The notes under the pieces were generated by a model that searched no databases, was not told the origin of the DNA, and was given only the letters and a program-made list of their open reading frames with translations. From Pirellulaceae bacterium (GTDB lineage: Bacteria; Planctomycetota; Planctomycetia; Pirellulales; Thermoguttaceae): 54,593 nucleotides of DNA. Shown piece after piece: positions 9,661-25,725 of this stretch; within the stretch, counting starts at the first letter, position 1, and every line of letters begins with the position of its first letter. A program made the translations under genes and the position numbers. The stretch lies in assembly GCA_012744395.1 (NCBI GenBank), contig JAAYCB010000182.1, positions 1 to 54,593 on the forward strand. Direction: 5' to 3'.

Positions 9661-11145
9661 CTAGAAATCGAACTGCATGCGGATCAAGAAGGCGTCGAGC
9701 GGGACGTTCGGCAGAGGCGTTCCGGCGGGCGTGAATCGCTGGCGGACGTCGGTGTGGACGTAGTTCCACATCAGGCGGGCGTTGGGCGTGAGATACCAAT
9801 TGACGCCGAAGGTGTGGTCCGCCGCGAAGCCCGCCCCGAGCCCCGCGCCGGGATCGGTCAGGTCGAGATTCGAGTAGCGGTAGGCGAGCTCCCAGGCGCC
9901 GCGGCCGCTTCGGGAATCGCCGTCGCCGGAGCGGATGCCGAGGAAGTTGCCCAGCGGTTTCGTGCGGCCGAAGCGGCCTTCGCTGCGGCGATAGGGGCGG
10001 TGCTCGCCGGTCAGGAAGTAGCTGGCGTAGATATAATAGCCACTCACGAAGGCGTCTTCGGCGCCGCTCTGGCTGAGGAAGCCGGCGACATATTCCGACT
10101 GGACGGAGAACGGCCCGAAGACAATCGCCACCTCGGGGCCGAGGAAATTGCCGAAATCGGCCGCGTCGATCCTGCCCGTGTCGAGGATCGTCGGGCCGAC
10201 GCCGTTTTCCGGCCGGCTCCGAAAACGCGGCTGGAGGTCGTCGAAGTCCCAGTAGCGGTACCCCAGGCCGAGGTGGACCAGGCCGCGCCCGCCGCTCGCC
10301 TCGTCGTACCAGGGCAGCCATGTCCCGCGCGCGGTGAAGGAGTAGCCGCCGTCGTCATTGGAGCCGAGGGGGACGGACTCGGTGTCCATGTGCCGGAATC
10401 CGCCGAACGCCCAGGTCAGGGTCTCCTGTTCGTTGTGGTTCAGCGCCATCGCGCCGACGTTCCTTGCCGGCGCCAGGGCGTTGGGCAGTGATCGTTCCAT
10501 GAACGTGATCGACAGCGTGCTGGTCAACTCCTCCAGGCTGAAGGGTTCTCTGAAGTGCCCCACGCGGACGGTGTTCAACAGCCGCAGATCGCGGATCTGG
10601 AAGTAGACGTCCTTGAACGCGGTGCGCTGCTGCCGCGCCGTTTCGGAAAGCAACTCGCGGTCGGCGAAGTCCAGCTCGATCTTGTAGCTGTAGACGTCGA
10701 ACATCTCCCCTTCGGCGTGCAGTCGGGCCGTGCGGAAGTAGACCGTGTCCTGCAAATTCGCCGAACCGTATCCAGCCGGAGCGGCCGCTGCGGCCGCCGC
10801 GTTGTCGTTGAACCAGACGCTGTCGAGGAAGACCCGCCCGCCGACGGTCACCGACGGCTTGGCGGCGGCCTTTCTTTTGTTTTCGGCCTCCTTATCGGCG
10901 GCCTTCTGGAGGGCCTTTTCCAGCGCCGCGACGCGCGCGGCCAGGTCCGCTGCGGTCTGTTGGCCGCCGACCGGTTGGGCGTCGAGCCGGCGATCGGCCT
11001 GGGAGAGCCGCGCGATTGGCGGCTCCGCGGCAAGCTGCCCACCTCCCCCGGACGGCTGGACAAGCTGAGCGTTCGCGCCGGTTGACAGGATGGCCACAAA
11101 CGCCCCGGCCAAGCAGGCGCACCACGTGCCGCTGCCTCGATGCAT
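9661..11145 (-). CDS. OprO/OprP-type phosphate-selective porin
   Basis: This 494-residue outer-membrane protein starts with a signal peptide (GTWCACLAGAFVAILSTGA, cleaved near NAQ). A short coiled coil follows (LAARVAALEKALQKAADKEA, about residues 64-95), then a porin O/P barrel with alternating strands, including VGHFREPFSLEELTSTLS and the typical C-terminal aromatic end MQFDF. Family members form trimeric 16- to 18-strand channels for anions such as phosphate or pyrophosphate. I chose the ATG preceded by GGAG (10 bases upstream); the longer frame has no ribosome site and puts the signal in the wrong place. The gene is divergent from the electron-transfer operon and shares a 591-bp regulatory region with it. 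Confidence 0.85.
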   Translation of the reverse strand: MHRGSGTWCACLAGAFVAILSTGANAQLVQPSGGGGQLAAEPPIARLSQADRRLDAQPVGGQQTAADLAARVAALEKALQKAADKEAENKRKAAAKPSVTVGGRVFLDSVWFNDNAAAAAAAPAGYGSANLQDTVYFRTARLHAEGEMFDVYSYKIELDFADRELLSETARQQRTAFKDVYFQIRDLRLLNTVRVGHFREPFSLEELTSTLSITFMERSLPNALAPARNVGAMALNHNEQETLTWAFGGFRHMDTESVPLGSNDDGGYSFTARGTWLPWYDEASGGRGLVHLGLGYRYWDFDDLQPRFRSRPENGVGPTILDTGRIDAADFGNFLGPEVAIVFGPFSVQSEYVAGFLSQSGAEDAFVSGYYIYASYFLTGEHRPYRRSEGRFGRTKPLGNFLGIRSGDGDSRSGRGAWELAYRYSNLDLTDPGAGLGAGFAADHTFGVNWYLTPNARLMWNYVHTDVRQRFTPAGTPLPNVPLDAFLIRMQFDF

Positions 11146-11736
11146 GTAGATATCTCCGCCGAGATGGACTGGCGACACAAGCGGCGTTGCCACACAAGTC
11201 CACCGGTTGGACACTCCCAGCGGGCCGGCGCCAGCCGTCATGCTCGAAACCACCGTAGCAGGTTATCGAAACCGCGCAGGCCGGAGCATCACGAGAACCG
11301 GCATAATGCGGCGCGGCGCTGCCGGAAAGCGCCGCAGAAACGGAAGAATCGATATAAATTGCCAGCGAAGGCGAGGCGATTCCCAAGCTGGAGATGGGGA
11401 CCAGGAGGATGGCGGTGGGAACCAGGAAAGCTGGTGCCTGGGGACCCGATGAGGGGGGGGAAATCGGCGAATCGCCTTGACATTTGCCATGCCGCCGGAT
11501 ATCCAAGAAGAGACAGATTCGGGGTCCTGGAGCGGCCGGCGTTGTACCTCAAGGCGACGGCCTGTTTGCCGGGAGCCCGATTTCGCCGAAATCTCGTTTG
11601 CCGAAATCTCGCCTGTTTCGGCCGGTCCCGCGGCCCATCTGTCGATCGGCGGCCTGGAGATGGCTTGGGCGCCATGCGTGTTCTCGGGCTCTCAGATTGT
11701 GGCGAGGTCCCCCAAGCGTGTCCTTCGAGAATCACA
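11146..11736. other. Divergent intergenic region between the porin and the electron-transfer operon
   Basis: About 590 bp carries presumably both promoters. It contains a degenerate copy of the GTTCCC palindrome (11379-11405, with a further partial copy to about 11447). It also contains a tandem pair of TTT(C)GCCGAAATCTCG units at 11581-11611, followed by another TTTCGGCC. No convincing gene was found; frames through it are shadows or unsupported upstream extensions of neighbouring genes. Confidence 0.5.
11581..11611. repeat. Tandem pair of 15-16-bp units
   Basis: TTTCGCCGAAATCTCG is followed directly by TTTGCCGAAATCTCG. The pair lies about 125-155 bp before the first gene of the operon. A tandem operator is possible but not shown. 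Confidence 0.5.
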
Positions 11737-13146
11737 ATGATCAACAAGGGAAGCGTCGAAATCGTGCTCCCCTCCGTTCTTGCCGCGCTAGGGGTCGTTG
11801 CCTTGGGGCTTTGGCTTAGTGTTGGCCGCCGGATGGAATTCGCGCCCCGCCTGCCGGGCGCGGACGGCGTGCCGAGCCGCGGCGATCTGGAGCAGGAACC
11901 GCCCCCGCAGCCGACCGGCCCGGTTATGCTGGGCGGCAAGCCCTCGTCGCTCAAGGGGAGCTGGCCCTGGTTCCGCGGCCCCCGGTTAAATGCGATCTCC
12001 ACGGGTGGCCCGCCGCTGGCGCGGACCTGGCCCGCGAGCGGCCCGGAGAAGCTTTGGAGCGTCGAGCTTGGCCCGGGCCATGCGGGCGCGGCGATCGATC
12101 AGGGCCGCGTGTTCGTGCTCGACTACGACCCGGCCGCGATGGCCGACACGATGCGGTGTTTCTCGCTGGACGACGGCGCTGAAATCTGGCGGAACAGCTA
12201 TCCCGTCGAAGTGGTCGAGAACCACGGCATGTCGCGGACCGTGCCCGCGGTCTCCGGCCCCTACGTCGTCTCGTTCGGCCCGAAATGCCACGTGGCGTGC
12301 TGGAGCGTCGAGTCGGGCGAGTGCCTCTGGCTGCTCGACCTGGTCGGCCAGTACCACGCCAAGGTGCCCAACTGGTACGCCGGGCAGTGCCCGCTGATCG
12401 ACGGCGACCGCGTGATCCTCGCTCCCTGTGGAGACGCGTGCCTGGTTGCCGTTGACATCAAGACGGGCAAGGCGGTCTGGGAATCGGAGAAGGCCGACAA
12501 TTGGGAGATGACGCACGTCTCGATCCTGCCAATGACGTTTGCCGGCCGGAAGATGTACGTCTATTGCGGCTCGGGAGGCGTGATCGGGGTTTCCGCGGAA
12601 GATGGCCGCACGCTCTGGCGGACCACGGAGTGGGTCGGCAAGATGGCGACCTGCCCCACGCCGGTGGAGATCGGCGATGGCCGGATTTTCTTCTGCGGCG
12701 GATACGCCGCCGGCGCCCGGATGATGCAGCTCAGTGCCGGCGGCGGCGGGCTGGAGATCAGCAGCCTGTTTGAACTGAAACCCAAGCAGTTCGAATCGGA
12801 GCAGCATACGCCCGTGTTTTACGAGGGCCATCTATACGGCGTCCGTACGAAGGCGGGTGGCGAGCAGCTTGTCTGCATGGACCTGGCGGGCAAGGAGATC
12901 TGGAACAGCGGCCGCGACAAGTTCGGCCGCGGCCCGTACATGATCGCCGACGGACTGATTCTCCTGCTCAACGACCAGGGCCGGTTGACTGTGGCGGAAG
13001 CCGCAGCCGACGCCTACCGGGTCCTCGGCCAGTTCGAGGTTCTCGAAGACGCCCACGACGCCTGGGCTCCGATGGCGCTTGCCGAGGGGCGGCTGATTCT
13101 CCGCGACCTGGTGCAGATGAAGTGCCTGCGGCTTGCCGCTTTGTGA
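11737..13146 (+). CDS. Membrane-anchored PQQ-type beta-propeller protein
   Basis: The 469-residue protein has an N-terminal transmembrane helix (VLPSVLAALGVVALGLWLSV, about residues 10-29), a proline-rich linker and then a quinoprotein-like propeller. Repeats such as VWESEKADNW, LWRTTEWVGKM and IWNSGRDKFGRG show the W-docking pattern of PQQ-like blades, and WPWFRGPRLNAIS is the usual planctomycete entry motif. Without the catalytic calcium/PQQ residues recognised, it is more likely a protein-binding or scaffold propeller than a dehydrogenase. The start is the ATG that places the anchor at the N-terminus; upstream in-frame codons continue through unrelated intergenic DNA. It is the first gene of a co-directional run ending at 22340; 38 bp separates it from the next gene. 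Confidence 0.8.
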   Translation: MINKGSVEIVLPSVLAALGVVALGLWLSVGRRMEFAPRLPGADGVPSRGDLEQEPPPQPTGPVMLGGKPSSLKGSWPWFRGPRLNAISTGGPPLARTWPASGPEKLWSVELGPGHAGAAIDQGRVFVLDYDPAAMADTMRCFSLDDGAEIWRNSYPVEVVENHGMSRTVPAVSGPYVVSFGPKCHVACWSVESGECLWLLDLVGQYHAKVPNWYAGQCPLIDGDRVILAPCGDACLVAVDIKTGKAVWESEKADNWEMTHVSILPMTFAGRKMYVYCGSGGVIGVSAEDGRTLWRTTEWVGKMATCPTPVEIGDGRIFFCGGYAAGARMMQLSAGGGGLEISSLFELKPKQFESEQHTPVFYEGHLYGVRTKAGGEQLVCMDLAGKEIWNSGRDKFGRGPYMIADGLILLLNDQGRLTVAEAAADAYRVLGQFEVLEDAHDAWAPMALAEGRLILRDLVQMKCLRLAAL

Positions 13147-13184
13147 TCCCTGACCCGCCCGATGAACAGTGCCCAGGAGGCCCC

Positions 13185-14264
13185 ATGACGAACCAACCCG
13201 CCGTCCGGCCCGCAGGTCTCGGTGTGATCGTCGTCGTCGCGACCGCCGCGTTGGTGGCTGGGCTGGCGGTTTGGCTGATCGACCGGTCGGGCGGCAGCGG
13301 CCATCGCCTGCCGGAAAAGTTTGTCTACCAGATCGACAAGTACAAACAGATCGACCCGGGCCTGCTTGCCTATGAAGAGGTGTTTTGCTTCGACTCGGGC
13401 CTGAAAGACGCCAGCGCGGTGGCGATTGGCCTCGAGGACAGGATCTTCGCAGCCGGAGACCGGTCGATTCGCATCTTCGACAGCCGAGGCGGCCGGCTGG
13501 CGGCGATCGAGCTCGCCGCCCGGCCGTCGTGCCTGGCGGTAGCGCCTGCGGATCATCCGCAGGCCGGCCGGGTGTTCGTCGGCTTGGGCGATCAGATCGG
13601 AGTATTTTCGGGCGAGGGCCAGCCGCTGGCCAGTTGGCCGCCGTTGGGGGAGAAGGCCATTTTGACGTCGATCGCGCTGGCCGAGGCGGACGTATTCGCG
13701 GCCGACGCCGGCCAGGCCCGCGTCCACCGCCTCTCCTTGGAGGGCGACGTGCTCGGGGCGATCGGCGGTCAGCGGGGGGGCAGGGGGTGGGCCCCGTTTG
13801 CCGTGCCCAGCCCGTTCTTCGACGTGGCGATGCACCCGGACGGCTGGCTGCGCGTCGTCAACCCGGGCGCTTTGCGGGTGGAGGCCTATTCGTTTGAGGG
13901 GAATCTGCAACTCTTCTGGGGCGAAGGGGGTGCGCGGATCGACGGGTTCTTTGGCTGCTGCAATCCGGCCAACATCGCCGTCCTGCCCGATGGCCGGTTC
14001 GTGACCGCCGAAAAGGGGCTCGTGCGCGTCAAGATCTACTCGGCCGACGGACAGTTCGAATCGGTCGTCGCCGGACCGGAGACCTTCGGCGCGGCGGCCG
14101 GCGCGGTCAACGAAAGCCTCTCGGACCACGAGTACACGGCCGTCGACGTGGCGGTCGACGGCAAGGGGCGGGTCGTGGTTCTCGACCTGACGACCGCCAA
14201 GATCCACGGATTTCAAACCAAGGCCGGATCCGGTGAAAGCGAGGCAGCCGATGGCAGTCGATAA
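13185..14264 (+). CDS. Membrane-anchored NHL-like beta-propeller protein
   Basis: The 359-residue protein has one N-terminal transmembrane helix (GVIVVVATAALVAGLAVWLI, about residues 12-31). Several NHL/SMP-30-like propeller repeats follow (IFAAGDRSIRIFDSRGG, VHRLSLEGDVLGAIGG, VVVLDLTTAKIHGF). AGGAGG lies 4 bases before the ATG, which decides the start. It has no catalytic signature. The propeller should face the periplasm. The gene sits between a PQQ propeller and the ferredoxin genes and overlaps the next small gene by 14 bp, so translational coupling is likely. Its role in the complex (scaffold, lid or docking module) is an inference. Confidence 0.8.
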   Translation: MTNQPAVRPAGLGVIVVVATAALVAGLAVWLIDRSGGSGHRLPEKFVYQIDKYKQIDPGLLAYEEVFCFDSGLKDASAVAIGLEDRIFAAGDRSIRIFDSRGGRLAAIELAARPSCLAVAPADHPQAGRVFVGLGDQIGVFSGEGQPLASWPPLGEKAILTSIALAEADVFAADAGQARVHRLSLEGDVLGAIGGQRGGRGWAPFAVPSPFFDVAMHPDGWLRVVNPGALRVEAYSFEGNLQLFWGEGGARIDGFFGCCNPANIAVLPDGRFVTAEKGLVRVKIYSADGQFESVVAGPETFGAAAGAVNESLSDHEYTAVDVAVDGKGRVVVLDLTTAKIHGFQTKAGSGESEAADGSR

Positions 14265-14478
14265 GGTTCAACCTCCGCCGCGAGCGGATCGCCGCGATTG
14301 GCTGGTGTCTGGCGCGCGCTGGGCCATTTTCGGGGCAATCGCCGCCGCGAGCGGCGGCTTGTGGCTGAAGTCGCGGAGGCTCCGGTGCGGCGCGGAGTCC
14401 CCGTGCGGGCAGTGCTCGCGACTGGGCGTCTGCCGCTTGACGGAAGCGGCCGCGGCGCGTCGAAGGGGGAAGGAGTAG
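14251..14478 (+). CDS. Small Cys-rich single-pass membrane protein
   Basis: This 75-residue protein has a basic N-terminus, one hydrophobic helix (WAIFGAIAAASGGLWL, about residues 24-39) and a four-cysteine cluster of the form C-x5-C-x2-C-x5-C (CGAESPCGQCSRLGVC), then a basic tail. It starts inside the end of the NHL gene and stops 5 bp before the ferredoxin gene, so it is locked into the operon. I do not recognise the family. Four cysteines next to a membrane helix, among Fe-S protein genes, suggest an iron-sulfur or zinc site at the membrane surface; with a basic N-terminus and no signal cleavage site, the side it faces is uncertain. Confidence 0.65.
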   Translation: MAVDKVQPPPRADRRDWLVSGARWAIFGAIAAASGGLWLKSRRLRCGAESPCGQCSRLGVCRLTEAAAARRRGKE

Positions 14479-14483
14479 TTGTC

Positions 14484-15083
14484 ATGACGTCAGCAACGAA
14501 CAGGCAGGATCGGCGGCAGTTTCTCGGCGGTGGAGCCCGCACGGTCGGGGCGATGGCGCTGGCCGGCTTCAGCGGTTTTCTGGCGGGGCGGTCGGGCAAG
14601 GCCGAGGAGACCGTCTGGCAGATCGATCCGGATGTCTGCACGACCTGCGGCAACTGCGCGACCTACTGCGTGCTGGACGAGTCGGCGGTCAAGGCCGTGC
14701 AGTGTTTCGATCTGTGCGCGATGTGCGATCCCTGCCCGGGCTACTTCGACCTCAGCCACCAGGAGCGGACCACGGCGGCCGAGAATCAGCTTTGCCCGAC
14801 GGGCGCCGTGCTGCGGACATTCATCGCCGAGCAAGCGGGCGTGCCGCGGTTCGAGTACTACATCGAGGAGAAGGACTGCATCGGCTGCGGCAAATGCGTG
14901 GAAGGCTGCGCGATGATGAACGGGTCGCTCTACTTGCAGGTCAGGCACGACCGCTGTGTCAACTGCAACCAGTGCGCGATCGCGATTGCCTGCCCGAGCC
15001 AGGCCTTCCGCCGAGTGCCCGCCTCCCAGCCCTACCTGATGAAGAAGAAGGCGCTGGCCGCCACGCAGCGGAGGGGCAGTTGA
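14484..15083 (+). CDS. Tat-exported multi-cluster ferredoxin (NrfC/NapG-like)
   Basis: The 199-residue protein has a twin-arginine signal (DRRQFLGGG followed by a hydrophobic stretch to about residue 35) and 17 cysteines in four groups: C52-C55-C58-C62, C74-C78-C81-C84 plus C104, C132-C135-C138-C142 and C158-C161-C164-C170. This predicts about four [4Fe-4S] clusters, as in NrfC, NapG and related periplasmic electron carriers that pass electrons between a membrane quinol dehydrogenase and a periplasmic partner. AGGAG at 14471-14475 fixes the start. The stop overlaps the start of the downstream NosR/NapH-like gene (TGATG), a tight coupling that supports a NapGH-like pair. Confidence 0.88.
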   Translation: MTSATNRQDRRQFLGGGARTVGAMALAGFSGFLAGRSGKAEETVWQIDPDVCTTCGNCATYCVLDESAVKAVQCFDLCAMCDPCPGYFDLSHQERTTAAENQLCPTGAVLRTFIAEQAGVPRFEYYIEEKDCIGCGKCVEGCAMMNGSLYLQVRHDRCVNCNQCAIAIACPSQAFRRVPASQPYLMKKKALAATQRRGS

Positions 15084-16411
15084 TGAGACGACCGCTCGGC
15101 ATCTTGTTTGCGACTGCCCTGCTCGGCCTGTTGGCCGCCGGGGCCGGCGCCCAGGACCTGCTTTCGCGCCCGGAAATCGACGGCCACGCGACCCCCACGG
15201 CCGAGTTTCCCGAGCCGCGCTCGGCGAGCCTGGAATATGGTGACGTGGCGGTGCTCGCGCTGGCGTTGGGCCTTTCGGTCTACTTGGCGCTGGTCCGCCG
15301 ATCGCGCCGCGGGCTGTTCCTGTTGGCGATCGGGTCGCTGGCGTATTTTGGCTTCTATCGCCAAGGCTGCGTCTGCGCGATCGGCTCGATTCAGAACGTT
15401 GCGTTGGCCCTGTCCGACTCGAGCTATGGCGTCTCGCTCGCAATCCTCGCCTTCTTCGCGCTGCCGCTGGTGGCCACGCTGTTCTTCGGCCGCACGTTCT
15501 GCGCGGCGGTCTGCCCCCTGGGGGCGATCCAGGAGCTGTTCGCCCTGCGGCCGGTCAAAGTGCCGCCTTGGCTGGACCAGGCGCTGGGCCTGGCGCCTTA
15601 TGTGTACCTGGGGGCGGCGGTGGTCTACGCGGCGACGGGCACGGCGTTCATCATCTGCGAATACGACCCGTTCGTGGCGTTCTTCCGCCTTTCGGGCAGC
15701 GCCAACATGCTCATCGTGGGAGCCTGCTTTCTCGTCATCGGCCTGTTCATCGGCCGCCCCTATTGCCGGTATCTCTGCCCCTACGGCGCGCTGCTCAAGC
15801 CGCTCTCGCGGCTCTCGCGGTGGCATGTGCGGATTCCACCCGAGGAGTGCATCAACTGCCGGCTCTGCGAGGACTCCTGCCCCTACGGCGCGATCCGTCC
15901 GCCGACGGTCAAGCAGTCGGTTGCGGACCGCAAGGCGACCCGCTTGCGGCTTGTCCTGCTCCTGGCGCTGTCGCCGCTGATCGTCGCCGCCACCGGCTGG
16001 GCCGGCCGCGGGCTGGGTGTCCCCCTTGCGCGACTCCATCCGGAATCGCAGCTTGCCGAACGGGTCCGCTTGGAGGAGACCGGCCAGGTGGAGGGGACGA
16101 CGGATGCCAGCGATGCGTTTTACAGCACGGGCCGGCCGCGCCAGGAGCTCTACGCCGCGGCGCTGGCCTTGCACGAGCGGTTTGCGGTCGCCGGGATGTT
16201 GCTGGGTGGATGGGTCGCGCTGGTCATCGCCGTCAAGCTGATCCACACGAACCTGCACCGCCAACGGACGGAATACAGCGCTGAACGAGGCAATTGCGTC
16301 TCCTGCGGACGGTGCTTCTGGTATTGCCCCGCCGAACAAGCCAGGTTGGGGTTGATCGAAAACGTCGACGTCGTGGTCAAGAGGCCGGCGGCGGAGAAAG
16401 GTGAATCTTGA
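15083..16411 (+). CDS. NosR/NapH-like membrane polyferredoxin
   Basis: This 442-residue protein has about seven hydrophobic segments. It has the twin CxxxCP motifs typical of NosR/NapH/CcoG-like membrane Fe-S proteins: FGRTFCAAVCPLGAIQ (C140, C144) and IGRPYCRYLCPYGALL (C228, C232). There are two ferredoxin-type clusters: CINCRLCEDSCP (C256-C266) and, after further transmembrane helices, CVSCGRCFWYCP (C405-C415). An extra CVC (C96, C98) sits near the start of a helix, as in the GCxCPxG pattern of NosR relatives. The N-terminal flavin-binding domain of true NosR is absent. The likely role is moving electrons across or along the membrane between quinol, or a cytoplasmic donor, and the periplasmic ferredoxin encoded just upstream. 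Confidence 0.85.
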   Translation: MRRPLGILFATALLGLLAAGAGAQDLLSRPEIDGHATPTAEFPEPRSASLEYGDVAVLALALGLSVYLALVRRSRRGLFLLAIGSLAYFGFYRQGCVCAIGSIQNVALALSDSSYGVSLAILAFFALPLVATLFFGRTFCAAVCPLGAIQELFALRPVKVPPWLDQALGLAPYVYLGAAVVYAATGTAFIICEYDPFVAFFRLSGSANMLIVGACFLVIGLFIGRPYCRYLCPYGALLKPLSRLSRWHVRIPPEECINCRLCEDSCPYGAIRPPTVKQSVADRKATRLRLVLLLALSPLIVAATGWAGRGLGVPLARLHPESQLAERVRLEETGQVEGTTDASDAFYSTGRPRQELYAAALALHERFAVAGMLLGGWVALVIAVKLIHTNLHRQRTEYSAERGNCVSCGRCFWYCPAEQARLGLIENVDVVVKRPAAEKGES

Positions 16412-16417
16412 GCAGCC

Positions 16418-18256
16418 ATGACTGAATCGAAGCCGCCGCAAAACGATCGCGAGACGCTTCACGTCGGACGGGTCGCCGCATGGCGCACGGCTGCCGTCCG
16501 CTCGTCCTATGTCGCAGCGGTTTTCATTGCCCTGGTCGCCCTCCTTCTCTTGTGGGACTTCAGCGGGCGGCTTGTCAAGGACCCGTTGGACTCCGACGCC
16601 TATCGGCAGCTCCGCGGGCAACTGGCCGGCAGTCCGGGCGATGCGGCCCTGCGCGAGACGATCCGCGCGGAGGACCGGCGGCTCCGCGAGGACTACTTTC
16701 GCCAGCGGCGATTTACCCGGACGGGCGCTTGGCTGGCCCTGGCGGGAGCGGTGGTGTTGCTGGTTTCCGCCAAGGCGGCGGTGACGCTTCAGCGCAAGCT
16801 CCCCGCGCCACTGCCAGCCGCGCCGCCGGACGATCGGGAGACGCGGGAGTCGAATGCCGCCCGCTGGACGGTGGCGGGCCTGGGAATTGCCCTTGTCGGC
16901 GCCGCGGTGCTGCTCCGCTGCACGATCCGGACGGAGCTGGCCTCCGTCACCGCGGCCGGTTCGCCGGGCGAGTCATCCGTGGCGCCCAAGGTCGATCCAG
17001 CGGCCGCCGGGCCGCCGCCGACCGCCGCGGCATCGACCGGCGCGCCCTCCGCGGCCCTGCCCTCGGCGGAAGAGATCGCCGCCAATTGGCCGCGGTTCCG
17101 CGGGCCGGGAGGCCTGGGGATTGCCCCGGCCATGGACCTGCCGGCGGCCTGGGACGCGGAGTCGGGCGAGGGGATCTGTTGGAAGGCACCGGTCTCCCTG
17201 CCCGGCAACAGCTCGCCGATTGTCTGGGGCGACCGGCTGTTTCTGACCGGGGCCGACGAGCAGCGGCGGGTGGTGCTCTGCTACGACGCGGCGGAGGGGA
17301 AGCAGCTTTGGGAGACCGCGATCCCCGCCACGCCGGAAAGCGAGGGCAAAGTGCCGGAACTCTCGGAGGACACCGGATTTGCCGCCCCCACGCCCGTCAC
17401 GGACGGACTGCGGGTCTACGCGATGTTTGCCAATGGCGACGTTGCCGCCGTCGACTTCGAAGGCAAGCTTGTCTGGACCAAGGGGCTGGGGATTCCCAAG
17501 AACATCTACGGCCACGCCTCGTCGCCGGCCATGTGGCGCGATCGCGTCATCGTCCAGTTCGACCAGGCGACCCCCAAGGATCAGCTTTCCAGGCTGATCG
17601 CACTGGACGCGGCGACGGGTGAGACGGTCTGGTCGACGCCGCGCGAGGTGGCCAACTCCTGGCCGTCGCCGATCGTGATCGACCACGAGGGGAGCCAACA
17701 GATCATTGCCTGCTCCGATCCATTCGTGATCGCCTACAACCCCGCCGACGGCAAGGAGATCTGGCGCTGCAAGTGCCTCCGGCAAGACGTCGGTCCATCG
17801 CCGACCTACGCCGACGGGATCCTCTACGTGACCAGTGAATTCCCCCAGATGACGGCGATTCGCCCCAGCGGGACGGGCGATATTACGGACAACGACGAAT
17901 ATGTCCTGTGGATCGCGGAGGACAATCTGCCCGACACGTGCAGCCCGCTGGCAACCGCCCGGCATGTCTACGTCTTGGCGTCGTACGGCTACCTGACCTG
18001 CTACGACGCCAAGAGCGGTGAGCTCCGCTGGGAATGGGAGTCGGACGACAGCTACACTTCGTCGCCAACCATGGTCGGTGATCTGATTTACGTCTTCGGC
18101 CTGGAGACCTGCGCGGTGATCTCGCCGGGCGGCGAAGGGGCGGAGACGGTGGGCAAGGGGACCCTGGGCGAAGAGTGCTTGACCACCCCGGCGGTTCACG
18201 GCGGGCGGATGTTCATCCGCGGCAAAGAGCATTTATTCTGCATCGGCAAGAAGTAG
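16418..18256 (+). CDS. PQQ-type beta-propeller with three N-terminal membrane helices
   Basis: The 612-residue protein has three hydrophobic helices in its first 180 residues (SYVAAVFIALVALLLLW; GAWLALAGAVVLLVSA; VAGLGIALVGAAVLL), then an Ala/Pro-rich linker, then a PQQ-like propeller. The propeller starts at NWPRFRGPGGLGI and has blades such as LWETAIPATPES, VWSTPREVANSW, IWRCKCLRQDVG and LRWEWESDDS. It starts 6 bp after the polyferredoxin gene. The helices place the propeller in the periplasm. As with the first propeller gene of the operon, the family is often non-enzymatic, so a structural or partner-binding role is as likely as an alcohol or sugar dehydrogenase role. Confidence 0.82.
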   Translation: MTESKPPQNDRETLHVGRVAAWRTAAVRSSYVAAVFIALVALLLLWDFSGRLVKDPLDSDAYRQLRGQLAGSPGDAALRETIRAEDRRLREDYFRQRRFTRTGAWLALAGAVVLLVSAKAAVTLQRKLPAPLPAAPPDDRETRESNAARWTVAGLGIALVGAAVLLRCTIRTELASVTAAGSPGESSVAPKVDPAAAGPPPTAAASTGAPSAALPSAEEIAANWPRFRGPGGLGIAPAMDLPAAWDAESGEGICWKAPVSLPGNSSPIVWGDRLFLTGADEQRRVVLCYDAAEGKQLWETAIPATPESEGKVPELSEDTGFAAPTPVTDGLRVYAMFANGDVAAVDFEGKLVWTKGLGIPKNIYGHASSPAMWRDRVIVQFDQATPKDQLSRLIALDAATGETVWSTPREVANSWPSPIVIDHEGSQQIIACSDPFVIAYNPADGKEIWRCKCLRQDVGPSPTYADGILYVTSEFPQMTAIRPSGTGDITDNDEYVLWIAEDNLPDTCSPLATARHVYVLASYGYLTCYDAKSGELRWEWESDDSYTSSPTMVGDLIYVFGLETCAVISPGGEGAETVGKGTLGEECLTTPAVHGGRMFIRGKEHLFCIGKK

Positions 18257-18365: not shown

Positions 18366-20720
18366 ATGAGCACGGACTTGGACCTCAGTTTCGTCAACCA
18401 GTGCGTCGAGCAGATCGGCCGCAACCGGGAGGCGGTGATTCCGATCCTCCAGGCGATCCAACAGCACTATCGCTACCTGCCGGCGGCGGCAATGGAGCGG
18501 GTCTGCCAACTGACCGAAATCACCCCCTCGTCGATCACCGGGGTCTCGACCTTCTACACGCAGTTCCGGCATCATCCGGTCGGGCAGCATATCATCAGCG
18601 TCTGTCATGGCACGGCGTGCCACGTGAAGGGCTCCGGATTGGTCCAGGATGCCTTGGAGTATCAGCTGGGGATCTCGGGAAATGGGCAGGACACCGACGC
18701 CCAGGGCCTGTTTACGTTGGAGAAAGTGGCTTGCCTGGGCTGCTGCACGCTGGCTCCCGTGGTGCAAATCGACCAGGTTCCCTACGGCCACGTGTCTCCC
18801 GCGCGCGTGCCGGGGATTCTCGACGACTTCCTCAAGCACGGCAAGCAGAGCGAAATCCAGATGCGCCGCCGGGAAGGCGAACGCCCAGCCGATGTGGGCG
18901 AAGTGCGGGTGGGGATGGGCTCCTGCTGCCAGGCCCAGGGGAGCAGCGGCGTCTACCATGCAATCGGCCGGGCGCTGGAGCAGAGCGGCGCTGCGGCGGT
19001 CGTCAAACGCGTCGGCTGCGTCGGCATGTGCCACCAGACGCCGATGGTCGAGATCGTCACGCCCGAGGGCCCTTCGCGATTCTTCTCCAAGGTCACTGCC
19101 GACGAGGCGGAAGAGATCGTGCTCGACCATTTTCAGCCGAAAGGGCGGATTCGCCGGTTCAGCCGGGCCGCCGCCCGCTGGCTCGACCGCTGGATCAGCG
19201 ACGAGGCCGGCCGGCCGGTGGAACGCCGGGCGCTCGATATCGCCCAGGGGCCGGCGTGTGCCTTCCTCCGCCACCAGATCCACCTGGCAACCGAAGGCAA
19301 CCCGTCCGCCGATCCGACCGACCTGGACGAGTATCTCCGCCAGGAGGGGTTCGAGGCGCTGCGCAAGTGCCTGGCTGAGATGCAGCCGGAGGAGCTGATC
19401 GAGGTGATTCGCGCAAGCGGCTTGCGCGGCCGCGGCGGCGCCGGGTTTCCCACCGGCAGGAAATGGGCCAAGGTCCGGGAAACGGCCGGCGAGAAGAAGT
19501 ATGTTGTCTGCAACGGCGACGAGGGCGACCCGGGGGCGTTCATGGACCGCATGCTGCTGGAGAGCTGCCCTTACCGGGTGATCGAGGGAATGACGATTGC
19601 CGCCCGTGCTGTGGGGGCGGATGAAGGGGTGTTCTACATCCGCGCCGAGTATCCCCTGGCGGTGCGGCGGGTCCGCGAAGCGCTGGATGAATGCCGCCAG
19701 CGGAACCTTCTCGGCGGCGACATCCTGGGGACCGGCTTCCGCTTCGAGATCTCCGTCAAGGAAGGCGCCGGCGCGTTCGTCTGCGGCGAGGAGACCGCGC
19801 TGCTTGCCTCGCTGGAAGGAAAACGGGGCATGCCCCGGCTCCGGCCGCCCTTTCCGGCCGAAAGCGGCTACCAGCAGAAGCCGACGCTGGTCAACAATGT
19901 CGAGAGTCTCGCGCTGGTGCCCTGGATCTTCCGCAACGGCGCGGAGCGGTTCGCCGCCTTGGGGACACCCACAAGCAAAGGCACGAAGGTCTTCGCCCTG
20001 GCCGGCAAGGTCCGCCGCGGCGGGCTGATCGAAGTCCCGATGGGGATCAGCGTCCGGCAAATCGTCGAAGAGATCGGCGGCGGGGTGGCCGAGGGCCGCC
20101 GATTCAAGGCCGTCCAGGTCGGTGGGCCGTCGGGCGGATGCGTGCCGGCGGACCTGGCCGATCTACCGATCGATTTCGAGGCCCTCTCCCGCGTCGGCGC
20201 GATCATGGGCTCCGGCGGCCTGGTGGTCCTCGACGACAGGGACTGCATGGTCGACATCGCGCGCTACTTTCTCCGCTTCACCCAGGACCAGTCGTGCGGC
20301 AAGTGCACCCTCTGCCGGATCGGCACCCGCCGGATGCTCGATATCCTCGATCGGATCTGCGCGGGGCAGGGGAGGCGCGGCGACCTGGAGGAACTGGAGA
20401 GCCTGGCGCGCGCCGTCCGCGCGGGAAGCATCTGCGGGCTGGGCAAAACGGCTCCCAATCCGGTGCTCTCCACGCTCCAGTATTTTCGCGATGAATACGC
20501 GGCCCACCTGGAGGGCCGCTGCCCGGCCGGCAAATGCCAGGACCTGATCGCGTACAAGATCGATGATCGCTGCATTGGCTGCACGCTCTGCGCGCAGCAT
20601 TGCCCGGTGAATGCCATTCCCTTGACGCCCTACAAGAAGCACACGATTGACGACCAGCTCTGCACCCGCTGCGACACGTGCCGCAACGTCTGTCCCACCG
20701 GCGCCGTCTACGTCGAGTAA
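18366..20720 (+). CDS. Fused NuoE-NuoF-like NADH-oxidising iron-sulfur flavoprotein with C-terminal ferredoxin
   Basis: This 784-residue protein has these domains in order. (1) NuoE/HydC-like thioredoxin-fold [2Fe-2S] domain, residues 1-160, ligands C80, C85, C123, C127. (2) A second thioredoxin-like Fe-S domain, about 180-260, with C187/C188, C218, C222. (3) NuoF core with FMN/NADH motifs GRGGAGFPTG (355-364) and NGDEGDPGAFMDR (383-395) and the N3 cluster C644-C647-C650 plus C690. (4) A C-terminal two-cluster ferredoxin, C736-C746 and C766-C776. The C-terminal ferredoxin and the extra [2Fe-2S] domain are features of HydB/HndC/Bfu-type subunits, not of complex I. GAAGG lies 8 bases before the chosen ATG; a GTG 15 bases earlier is possible. 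The protein would be cytoplasmic and oxidise or reduce NAD(H). Confidence 0.88.
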   Translation: MSTDLDLSFVNQCVEQIGRNREAVIPILQAIQQHYRYLPAAAMERVCQLTEITPSSITGVSTFYTQFRHHPVGQHIISVCHGTACHVKGSGLVQDALEYQLGISGNGQDTDAQGLFTLEKVACLGCCTLAPVVQIDQVPYGHVSPARVPGILDDFLKHGKQSEIQMRRREGERPADVGEVRVGMGSCCQAQGSSGVYHAIGRALEQSGAAAVVKRVGCVGMCHQTPMVEIVTPEGPSRFFSKVTADEAEEIVLDHFQPKGRIRRFSRAAARWLDRWISDEAGRPVERRALDIAQGPACAFLRHQIHLATEGNPSADPTDLDEYLRQEGFEALRKCLAEMQPEELIEVIRASGLRGRGGAGFPTGRKWAKVRETAGEKKYVVCNGDEGDPGAFMDRMLLESCPYRVIEGMTIAARAVGADEGVFYIRAEYPLAVRRVREALDECRQRNLLGGDILGTGFRFEISVKEGAGAFVCGEETALLASLEGKRGMPRLRPPFPAESGYQQKPTLVNNVESLALVPWIFRNGAERFAALGTPTSKGTKVFALAGKVRRGGLIEVPMGISVRQIVEEIGGGVAEGRRFKAVQVGGPSGGCVPADLADLPIDFEALSRVGAIMGSGGLVVLDDRDCMVDIARYFLRFTQDQSCGKCTLCRIGTRRMLDILDRICAGQGRRGDLEELESLARAVRAGSICGLGKTAPNPVLSTLQYFRDEYAAHLEGRCPAGKCQDLIAYKIDDRCIGCTLCAQHCPVNAIPLTPYKKHTIDDQLCTRCDTCRNVCPTGAVYVE

Positions 20721-20759: not shown

Positions 20760-22340
20760 ATGCCAAGCATCACGATCGACCAACGCGAAGTGGTCGTGCC
20801 CGAGGGCGCGACGATTCTCGATGCCGCCCGAACGATCGGCCTGGAGATTCCCACGCTCTGCCATCTGAAGGGCTACACGCCTTCCACGTCCTGCCTTGTC
20901 TGCATCGTCAAGGTGGGTGGGCGGCTGGTGCCTTCCTGCGCGACGGTGGCGGTCGAAGGGATGCGGGTGGAGAGCGAGACCGAGGAAGTCCATCAGGTGC
21001 GGCGAACGACCTTGGAGCTGCTGCTCAGCGACCATGTGGGCGATTGCCTGGCCCCCTGCCATTTCGCCTGCCCCGCCCACATGGACATCCCCTTGATGCT
21101 CCGCCAGATCAGCAGCGAAAACCTCCGCGAGGCGATTGCCACGATCAAGCAAGCCATCGCGCTTCCCGCCGTCCTTGGCCGGGTCTGCCCGAAACCCTGC
21201 GAAAAAGGCTGCCGGCGGAGCGGGGCCGACGGGGCGGTGGCGATCTGCGACCTGAAGCGCTTTGTCGCCGACCAGGATCTTGCATCGCCGCAACCCTATC
21301 TGCCAGACCGGCCGCCCGAGACGGGCCGGAGCGTGGCCGTCGTCGGCGCCGGTCCGACCGGTCTTTCCGCGGCCTACTACCTGCGGCGGGAGGGGCACCA
21401 GGTGGTGATCTACGAACAGGAGTCCCAATTGGGCGGCCGGCTGCGGCGTGAATTCGGGGCCGAGGCATTGCCCCCCGACGTGCTCGACGCCGAGATCGCC
21501 ACAATCACCGCATTCGGGATCGAGACGCGACTGGGAATGCGGTTCGGTCGCGACCTGGTGCTCGAAGGGCTGCTCGAGCGGCACGATGCCGTGCTGATCG
21601 CTTGCGGAGCGGTTGGCAGCGGAACGGTCGAAAGCTGGCAATTGGTGGCCACCCCGCGGGGCATTGGCGTTGAGAAGGAGACCTATGCGACAAGCCGCCG
21701 CGGGGTGTTCGCCGCGGGCAACGCGGTTCGCGCCAAAGGGCTCGTCGTGCGGAGCGTCGCCGATGGGAAGGAGGCCGCCGCGGCGATTGGACGATTCCTC
21801 GCGGGAAGGGACGTGGCGGAGGCACCGAAGGCTTTCTCCTCACGAATCGGTAAGCTGACGGCGGAGGAGCTGGCAGCCTTCGCCGCCGGCGGAGACACGC
21901 GCCCGCGTCAAGACCCCTCTTCCAAGGCCGCCGGGTTCGAGCCGACGCTCGCCGTCGAGCAGGCCGGGCGCTGCCTGCATTGCGATTGCCGGGCGCTCCA
22001 CACCTGCAAGCTCAAGCGGTACGCCGAGATGTACGGCGCCGATCCGAATCGTTACAAGGGCGAGCGGGCCGTATTTCAGCAGGACCTGCGGCATTCGATG
22101 GTCATCTATGAGCCGGGAAAGTGTATCAATTGCGGGCTCTGCATCGAGATCGCCACGTTGGCCGGCGAGCCGCTTGGCCTGACATTCATCGGACGCGGTT
22201 TCGATGTCCGGGTGGGGGTGCCGTTTGACCGCTCGATGGCGGAAGCGCTTGGCAAGGTGGCCGAAAAGTGCATTGAAGCCTGCCCGACCGCCGCCCTCTC
22301 AATGCGGGACAGTCACGGTCCGTGCAGGTGCAATGCCTGA
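20760..22340 (+). CDS. 2Fe-2S / FAD / 4Fe-4S protein, GltD-like but lacking the NAD(P)H domain
   Basis: The 526-residue protein has these parts. (1) An N-terminal NuoG/HydA-type [2Fe-2S] domain with C34, C45, C48, C60. (2) The Fe-S/helical domain that precedes GltD-type flavoproteins, with C96, C100, C104, C143, C147, C151. (3) A FAD fold with GAGPTGLSAAYYL (196-208) and, at the far end, RGVFAAGNAVRAKGLVV (314-330). (4) A C-terminal ferredoxin-like part with CLHCDC (405-410), CINCGLC (455-461) and CIEACP (504-509). Only about 30 residues separate DAVLIACGA from RGVFAAGN, where GltD and NfnB have a full NAD(P)H-binding Rossmann domain; that domain is absent. It starts 39 bp after the NuoEF fusion and probably forms a complex with it. 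Confidence 0.85.
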   Translation: MPSITIDQREVVVPEGATILDAARTIGLEIPTLCHLKGYTPSTSCLVCIVKVGGRLVPSCATVAVEGMRVESETEEVHQVRRTTLELLLSDHVGDCLAPCHFACPAHMDIPLMLRQISSENLREAIATIKQAIALPAVLGRVCPKPCEKGCRRSGADGAVAICDLKRFVADQDLASPQPYLPDRPPETGRSVAVVGAGPTGLSAAYYLRREGHQVVIYEQESQLGGRLRREFGAEALPPDVLDAEIATITAFGIETRLGMRFGRDLVLEGLLERHDAVLIACGAVGSGTVESWQLVATPRGIGVEKETYATSRRGVFAAGNAVRAKGLVVRSVADGKEAAAAIGRFLAGRDVAEAPKAFSSRIGKLTAEELAAFAAGGDTRPRQDPSSKAAGFEPTLAVEQAGRCLHCDCRALHTCKLKRYAEMYGADPNRYKGERAVFQQDLRHSMVIYEPGKCINCGLCIEIATLAGEPLGLTFIGRGFDVRVGVPFDRSMAEALGKVAEKCIEACPTAALSMRDSHGPCRCNA

Positions 22341-24027: not shown

Positions 24028-25725
24028 TTATGCCCCATCCCCGGTGATCATCTTCCGCTCGCGCGGACTCAGATCGTAAAGGTCAAACACGGCCCTGTTA
24101 CACGCCGCGGACCGTCCTGCGCCGACGGACTTGACCAAGGCGTCGCGCTCTCTTTTCGGAACGTCCCGCCATCGCGGAAGCCTGATGCGCCTTAAATACT
24201 GGGCCTGAAAGCGAAGGTAGCCCCCCCGCATCTGGGTTGAGTACGAGGAAACGAAGAGGTGAGCGATTCCCGACACCAGGACGGCCTGAAGGGCCCTCAA
24301 GTCCCATTCATCGGAGGTGATATAATACAGGTTGTGATGCGGATAGAATCGTCCGTCTTCATAAACGACGTGGGCTGTGCCCTTAATGTCTGGAATCAGC
24401 AGCTTCGGCTGGTAGGTAAGGTGTTCGTGAATGCGGTCGATCGTGCGATACCATCCACGCGGGTTCTTCTTGGCGCAGTTTCGCGAGCGGATGACGTTTG
24501 CGTGCGTCTCCAGATATCCTGCCAGCTTCGGAAACCGGCGCAGATCAACGAGCGTCCCGTCCCGGTTGAATGGGTTGATGACACCGAACCCTTGCCACTG
24601 GACAGTGCCGTTCTGGATGTCCGCAGTCCTGACAAGAGGCAGCTTGCGGCTGGTCTCTACATCGAGCGAATCGAATCGGCCGATGAACACCTTGTCCGCG
24701 CCGGTTGCCACCCCGATCCCGACTTTGCAGCCGACCTCCTCCAAGAGAGGAAACTGCGATTCGAGCTTTCGCACTAGGGCAAGCTGGTCGAGGGAATCGA
24801 GTATCCATGGTTCGCGCCCGTTGGCGACCCCGCGGATTTCGACGACGTCGCTATTTCGAGGAGCGTCCTTCGCGACGATTGCCTGAGAGATTCTTGCCAG
24901 CTCTTCGGGGGCAATCCTGGGGCGGTGGGCGATGCGTGTGGGCCCCGGCGGTTCCCGGCGTATGATGGTCACGGCGGTGTAGGCGGTCACGTCCGAATGA
25001 AACGCCGGCGTGTCGACCATATCGATGTAGCCGGCAAGATGGTATTCACGCGAGACGAGTTCGCGAAGCGGCCCACCGTATCGATTCTTCATCCAGCGGT
25101 CGGAACAGATGAACCCGAGAGTTCCGCCGGGCTCCAGACGCCGCAAGCATCGTTCCATGAATGGGACGTAGACATCCGCCCTGTCGTAGAGCGTGGTGTA
25201 CCGGGATCGGTACTCTCGCAACAGAACATCCGGGATTAACTCTTGCCTGACGTAGGGCGGATTACCGACGGCATGTGTAAATTTCCAAGGCAGGTCCGCG
25301 AGCAGAAAATCTCCGTGGATGATCCACGATTGAAGAATCTCCGCGGCGCCGCGTTTTGTGATGCCGTGAGAAGCGAGCACCTCGGCGATTCGTGTTCTTG
25401 TGCGCTGGATGCTGTCAGGGTGAATCTCAACGGCTCGAATCGCACTGGACAGGCAGTGCACTGCATCCGATGGCTTCCCGTGAGATATGTAGGCCGCCAG
25501 CAGCCGTTCAACCACGGGCAGAAGAAAATCGCCATTGCCGAAGGAAGGCTCGAGGATTCGGAACTGGTAGAGGGGCAGATCTTGCGTGTAGCCAGCCAGA
25601 TCGAGAATGAACTCGACTACTTCGCGACGCGTGAAAACCGCGCCTCGGTCCTCCGCGTTGCCAGCGGCCAGAGCTTCGACGGCGTCCGAAAAGTCGATGA
25701 TCGGCAGCAATCCCTGTCGTGCCAC
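24028..25725 (-). CDS. Adenine-specific DNA methyltransferase, Eco57I/TaqI-like (orphaned)
   Basis: The 565-residue protein has the SAM-binding motif I as [14 protein letters not shown] (57-70) and the N6-adenine catalytic motif NPPYVR (155-160). A long C-terminal target-recognition region follows ([38 protein letters not shown]), typical of Eco57I/TaqI-class gamma methyltransferases. In this family the gene usually pairs with a PaeR7I/XhoI endonuclease that cuts CTCGAG; the pair is severed here, so the enzyme is now a solitary methylase. By eye, its base composition is less GC-rich than that of the genes around it, consistent with transfer. CTCGAG methylation is an inference from the partner family. 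Confidence 0.85.

Follow-up and report, generated by a model that had tools for sequence, protein, structure and literature searches.

Results

Genes of the operon

The stretch of DNA analysed here, called the window, comprises 54,593 nucleotides of a contig from a Pirellulaceae bacterium (JAAYCB010000182.1) and carries on its forward (+) strand a compact gene set that starts at position 11737 and ends with the gene for a 526-aa protein at 20760-22340. The set opens with a PQQ-type beta-propeller protein (11737-13146) and an NHL-type beta-propeller protein (13185-14264; NHL Pfam match weak) with a conserved GCCNP motif. These are followed by a 75-aa protein with an Arg pair, a hydrophobic segment and four cysteines spaced C-x5-C-x2-C-x5-C (14251-14478), a ferredoxin with a twin-Arg signal and 16 invariant cysteines (14484-15083), a polytopic membrane ferredoxin that resembles NapH/NosR and has conserved Cys motifs (15083-16411), and another PQQ-type beta-propeller protein, this one with N-terminal hydrophobic segments (16418-18256). 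A fused NuoE-NuoF, similar to HydC-HydB and BfuC-BfuB (18366-20720, alternative start 18351), stands directly before the gene for the 526-aa protein.

The Tat-type ferredoxin has a conserved RR and four [4Fe-4S] motifs, as in NapG, and from its sequence would work like a NapG-type periplasmic ferredoxin; its NCBIfam NapG match lies below the cut-off, which leaves membership in that family unproven. Both cysteines of the GCCNP motif are invariant in homologues of the NHL-type propeller, and these adjacent residues could bind a metal or a cluster.

A reading of the sequence alone had identified the neighbor of the 526-aa protein as a NuoEF subunit, and the fusion indeed keeps FMN/NADH motifs, B1 and the C-terminal 2x[4Fe-4S] ferredoxin domain of BfuB together with the BfuC [2Fe-2S] site, as found in bifurcating (Bfu) cores. 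Its B2 region, the [2Fe-2S] N-terminus of BfuB, reads GSCC...GCVGMC. The idea that these unusual B2 cysteines might be special to this locus was set aside, as a similar GSCG motif opens the NuoF of L090, a full-length relative that lies outside the operon. N-terminal [2Fe-2S] cysteines of NuoF are lost in several lineages (L101, L103, L105, L106, L112 and L116), and L046 seems to be without the domain. Because B2 cysteines have been lost in some lineages, the sequences suggest that the core may not always bifurcate.

The same gene order occurs at most loci that encode a homologue of the 526-aa protein without an NAD(P)H-binding domain (NAD-less, see below) and that have enough flanking DNA, and 22 of 31 loci have a similar 4-Cys small ORF ahead of the gene for the Tat-type ferredoxin. 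Among 392 genomes of the phylum, the subunit family was found in 51 and the Tat ferredoxin in 37, with both present in 33. Operon conservation alone is no proof of a single complex. The notion that the operon replaces Rnf/Nqr was discarded: the source genome is without PF03116, but many operon carriers have it.

Two other loci were noticed. On contig C337 of the source genome (26979-29288; L002, L004), a GltD-like match falls within a frame that stays open for about 1195 aa and adjoins a HydA-like protein; it may be a hydrogenase-linked pyridine-nucleotide module. Within the window, an ORF on the reverse strand (24028-25725, -) looks like an Eco57I-kind N6-adenine DNA methyltransferase, judged from an NPPY motif seen by eye.

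A BfuA-type subunit without its NAD(P)H-binding domain

Pfam matches place Fer2_4 at residues 3-74 of the 526-aa protein, Fer4_20 (DPD/GltD-type 4Fe-4S) at 96-174 and an FAD Rossmann fold from about residue 191. The full layout is a NuoG-type [2Fe-2S] domain, a GltD/DPD-type Fe-S domain, two FAD Rossmann halves and a C-terminal Fe-S region. Among PDB entries the best matches come from the Bfu-type bifurcating transhydrogenases NfnABC/StnABC, namely from their A subunits (9bov, E 2.7e-96; 9n5u; 8oh5), the corresponding subunit being named StnC in the paper on the Sporomusa enzyme StnABC (PMC10482914). These matches span residues 1-290 and about 290-515, skipping the NAD(P) domain. The best NCBIfam match, PRK12814 (NF009454), covers the first 287 residues with their order unchanged; its 406 bits fall well short of the curated cut-off (916 bits) of this 657-position model.

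An AlphaFold model of the protein (mean pLDDT 90.6) superposes end-to-end on the solved NfnABC/StnABC A subunits over 510-518 residues with Z 40-42.5, and on 9bov_A over 517 residues with Z 42.5 at 2.6 A. Inside the matched range, the solved chains have approximately 150-200 extra residues, which are the NAD(P)H-binding domain missing here. Similarly, residues 94-349 match NfnL (5jfc) with Z 31.1 at 1.6 A, 255 aligned residues being spread over a chain range of about 427.

The protein has a NuoG-like [2Fe-2S] N-terminus, an Fe-S chain and a gene adjoining BfuB/BfuC homologues, as expected of a BfuA-type subunit, and a GltD/NfnB-type FAD fold with GxGxxG and the ribose-binding acid. Absent is the second Rossmann domain, for NAD(P)H, that GltD/NfnB-type proteins have between the FAD halves, and with it the NADP(H)-binding FAD domain that characterizes BfuA in NADP-linked Nfn-Bfu enzymes. 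On the evidence of sequence and structure model, we read the 526-aa protein as a BfuA-type (NfnA/StnC-like) subunit that has lost its NADP(H)-binding Rossmann domain by deletion.

Between DAVLIACGA and RGVFAAGN, a 29-residue linker (21615-21701) takes the place of the domain. In 28 of the 29 complete homologues of a first search round the linker measures 28-32 residues (exactly 29 in 25 of them), the remaining one having 20. A Planctomycetota-wide comparison set comprised 51 NAD-less homologues, with linkers mostly of 29 residues and some of 4-64, and 13 relatives that retain the domain, with 160-182 residues at this place. The sequence-only reading had proposed the domain loss, named a clean deletion shared by homologues as what would support it and a sequencing or assembly deletion as what would overturn it. 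The same clean deletion is seen in 51 homologues from independent assemblies, which excludes both chance and an assembly error. A single loss is compatible with the tree (AU p 0.51). One protein, L109, is a candidate for independent loss: it groups with the full-length forms and retains the RLP-side Arg and the AGGD Asp. Its placement hints at two losses, and the AU test leaves both histories standing.

Iron-sulfur ligands are retained

As the sequence-only reading had it, the N-terminus is of the NuoG [2Fe-2S] type; its four ligands (C34, C45, C48 and C60; 20859-20939) are present in all 51 NAD-less homologues. The GltD/NfnB-type ligands (H92, C96, C100, C104, C143, C147 and C151, with C163 and K166; 21033-21257), assigned from conservation and the StnABC paper (PMC10482914), follow, and the GltD sets are kept in 49-50 of the 51. 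K166, the equivalent of the StnC cluster ligand K170, is found in 43 of 48 NAD-less proteins. A cysteine at position 163 occurs in 40 of these 48 versus 2 of 13 full-length relatives. The ferredoxin-like C-terminal region that had been proposed is present (21972-22283), with its ligands retained in 51/51, but of the two cluster motifs that StnC has there just one full set remains (C455, C458, C461 and C508). Beside it stands an RCLxCxCx5C set (C405, C408, C410 and C416).

The FAD site is partly preserved

Residues 185-285 (21312-21614), delimited by Pfam and conservation, make up the first FAD half and contain GAGPTG at 196-201. In the second half (residues 315-350; 21702-21809), recognized by conservation, AAGN replaces AGGD, so that the Asp of this FAD motif is Asn; the Asp is retained in only 4 of 48 NAD-less proteins. 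The nicotinamide side has changed as well. Relatives that keep the domain have RYGIPxxR or a near-variant at positions matching 229-236, the last Arg of which (R239 in StnC, R201 in NfnB) is A236 in the 526-aa protein; Arg stands there in 13/13 full-length relatives versus 7/48 NAD-less proteins, and mean conservation over 229-236 falls from 0.83 to 0.34. In StnABC, changing R239 to Ala brought NADP reduction below detection (PMC10482914). An NADP(H) transhydrogenase reaction at this flavin, which the sequence-only reading had already discounted, is implausible.

The FAD contacts themselves were better preserved. For contact residues picked from the general fold rather than from the AlphaFold model, mean conservation is 0.79 over the NAD-less proteins and 0.872 in the family of the 526-aa protein itself, in each case above the remainder of the domain (permutation p <= 0.0003). 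GxGxxG, E/D219, GG225-226 and the VRS/A-x-AxG helix all stand above the remaining FAD domain. Since the contacts are better conserved than their surroundings, FAD is probably still bound by the 526-aa protein. Of 48 NAD-less proteins, 38 have Arg at position 324, a residue that no listed full-length relative has there. Arg 331 was likewise considered as a novelty of the NAD-less family and dropped, since full-length relatives also carry it.

Compared with the other domains, the first FAD half is relaxed. In the NAD-less set residues 185-285 have the lowest mean pairwise identity (0.445, against 0.558 for the N-terminus, 0.578 for the GltD Fe-S domain and 0.501 for the C-terminus), whereas in full-length relatives they have the highest (0.561, against 0.514, 0.503 and 0.459, respectively). 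When proteins were compared at matched divergence of the other domains, every bin with both groups again showed lower identity of this half for the NAD-less proteins. Such relaxation is expected if the flavin site has lost its catalytic partner, and part of it may merely stem from former contact surfaces with the missing domain.

Loss of the flavin arm within one operon

Variants of the subunit from the same operon form a series of progressive loss of the FAD arm. Full-length forms with the NAD(P)H domain occur in L092, L093 and L094, the first accompanied by PQQ1, NHL, ferredoxin and NapH. The 526-aa protein and most others are without the NAD(P)H domain and have the FAD motifs. L096, L112 and also L017 have a decayed FAD domain, L096 being without the GltD cysteines as well. 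In L126 and L130 the FAD domain is deleted, L127 is likewise without it, and these proteins measure 355-391 residues. Apart from L129, every protein of the series retains its N-terminal [2Fe-2S] cysteines along with the two C-terminal Cys sets. L129 has no GltD arm, and its NuoEF is extended by a NuoG-like tail: this single-contig genome encodes a 984-aa NuoE-NuoF-NuoG-tail fusion (10216-13170) with the same membrane genes. L129 could be a side branch instead of the end point of the series.

Because homologues from the same operon have decayed or deleted FAD domains, the flavin appears to be dispensable to the system in some lineages. A series that runs, inside one operon, from a full NADP(H)-binding flavin arm to none provides natural variants with which to test the roles of Bfu modules.

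Discussion

The sequence-only reading suggested that the flavin of the 526-aa protein relays or splits electrons received from the adjacent NuoEF subunit. An obligatory relay would have electrons leave the Fe-S clusters by way of FAD for a new docking partner, such as the NapH-like protein or a soluble carrier, that stands in for the NAD(P)H domain. It would fit the kept FAD contacts, the presence of K166 and C163 beside the FAD-proximal cluster in most NAD-less proteins and the Arg at 324 that the listed full-length relatives do not have. The relay is conceivable, but several lineages with the same operon have the FAD domain deleted or ruined and residues 185-285 are relaxed overall, and we consider it unlikely. 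The opposite reading, that the domain is a flavin-free structural remnant and the subunit an Fe-S wire only, is a shade less likely again: it accords with the replacement of the AGGD Asp in 44 of 48 proteins, the frequent loss of R236, the relaxation and the deletions elsewhere, but would leave the above-average conservation of GxGxxG, E/D219, GG225-226 and the VRS/A-x-AxG helix unaccounted for. With the FAD contacts kept and C163 and R324 in most NAD-less members, the flavin or the adjacent cluster may retain a job. HdrA is another FAD protein said to be without a usable NAD(P) site.

Splitting of electrons by this flavin found no support. The GltD-type FAD of NfnB does bifurcate, but that of StnC is non-bifurcating, bifurcation in StnABC being assigned to the FMN subunit and the electron route being NADPH to FAD to clusters to FMN (PMC10482914). 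Moreover, the N5-proximal Arg has been replaced by A236 and no hydride donor site remains, which makes a bifurcating FAD here highly improbable. We give just as little credence to the idea that another protein supplies the missing domain, with NADP(H) still reacting at the FAD, since the nicotinamide-facing residues are lost too, the genes of the operon include none seen to encode a separate Rossmann protein, and a limited search turned up nothing in its favor.

The account that we favor, and hold to be somewhat probable from sequence and model, is that a BfuA-type subunit has been stripped of its NADP(H) arm and that its third partner is now a membrane/periplasmic Fe-S chain. According to the Bfu scheme, the BfuBC core receives a third substrate through BfuA (PMC9304861). 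Here, the 526-aa subunit and the fused NuoE-NuoF would form a cytoplasmic module for NADH and probably also ferredoxin, in which NADP(H) has been replaced as third partner by the NapH-like protein, the Tat ferredoxin, the small 4-Cys protein and the beta-propellers. Electron transfer, to or from the membrane, would connect NADH/FMN of NuoF with the NapH-like protein by way of the [2Fe-2S] and [4Fe-4S] clusters in the 526-aa subunit; we infer this path, like complex formation and the occupancy of the FAD site. No docking site between the 526-aa subunit and the NapH-like protein was identified. FAD would be a side cofactor off the main path, left over from an NADP(H) arm that was dismantled stepwise from a Bfu-type core.

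More tentatively, we propose that this may be a membrane-linked Bfu-type complex, patchy but wide in Planctomycetota, that connects an NADH/ferredoxin bifurcating core with a periplasmic Fe-S ferredoxin and beta-propellers through the NapH-like protein, after stepwise loss of the NADP(H) flavin arm. Planctomycetota are an environmental phylum of wide occurrence, and the eight conserved genes point to a transmembrane electron-transfer system in it. The components of this system are of known kinds; neither a description of the operon nor the combination of these components with the domain loss was met in the mostly open-access literature searched.

The closest known systems are compared as follows. 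NfnABC/StnABC (9bov, 9n5u, 8oh5) share the NuoG-like [2Fe-2S] domain, the GltD-like Fe-S domain and FAD fold, the C-terminal Fe-S region and partners homologous to the fused NuoE-NuoF. In contrast to them, the 526-aa protein is without the NAD(P)H domain, YGIPxxR and the AGGD Asp, and also without the long FdhF-like C-terminal extension of StnC, while NuoE and NuoF are fused and the operon includes membrane and periplasmic genes. PRK12814, a putative NADPH-dependent glutamate synthase small subunit, is alike in domain order over the N-terminal 287 residues, the match being below its curated cut-off. With NapGH/NosR-type systems the operon shares a Tat-type multi-[4Fe-4S] ferredoxin and a NapH/NosR-like membrane ferredoxin, but the matches lie below curated cut-offs, no nitrate or N2O reductase is encoded, and cytoplasmic NuoEF, a GltD-like partner and beta-propellers are present instead. 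The Kuenenia Rieske/cytochrome b complexes (PMC12954380) have an NAD(P) oxidoreductase subunit with a modelled fold like NfnABC, which has been proposed to function together with a membrane complex. That proposal centers on the NAD(P) site and on a Rieske/cytochrome b membrane part; the present operon has a NapH-like membrane part and a subunit that has lost the site. Finally, in the predicted Mbh-Bfu and Nuo-Bfu (PMC9304861), a BfuABC-like core is likewise clustered with membrane genes and BfuA adapted to a third partner, but the present operon has a NapH-like protein and a periplasmic ferredoxin in place of a hydrogenase or the membrane arm of complex I.
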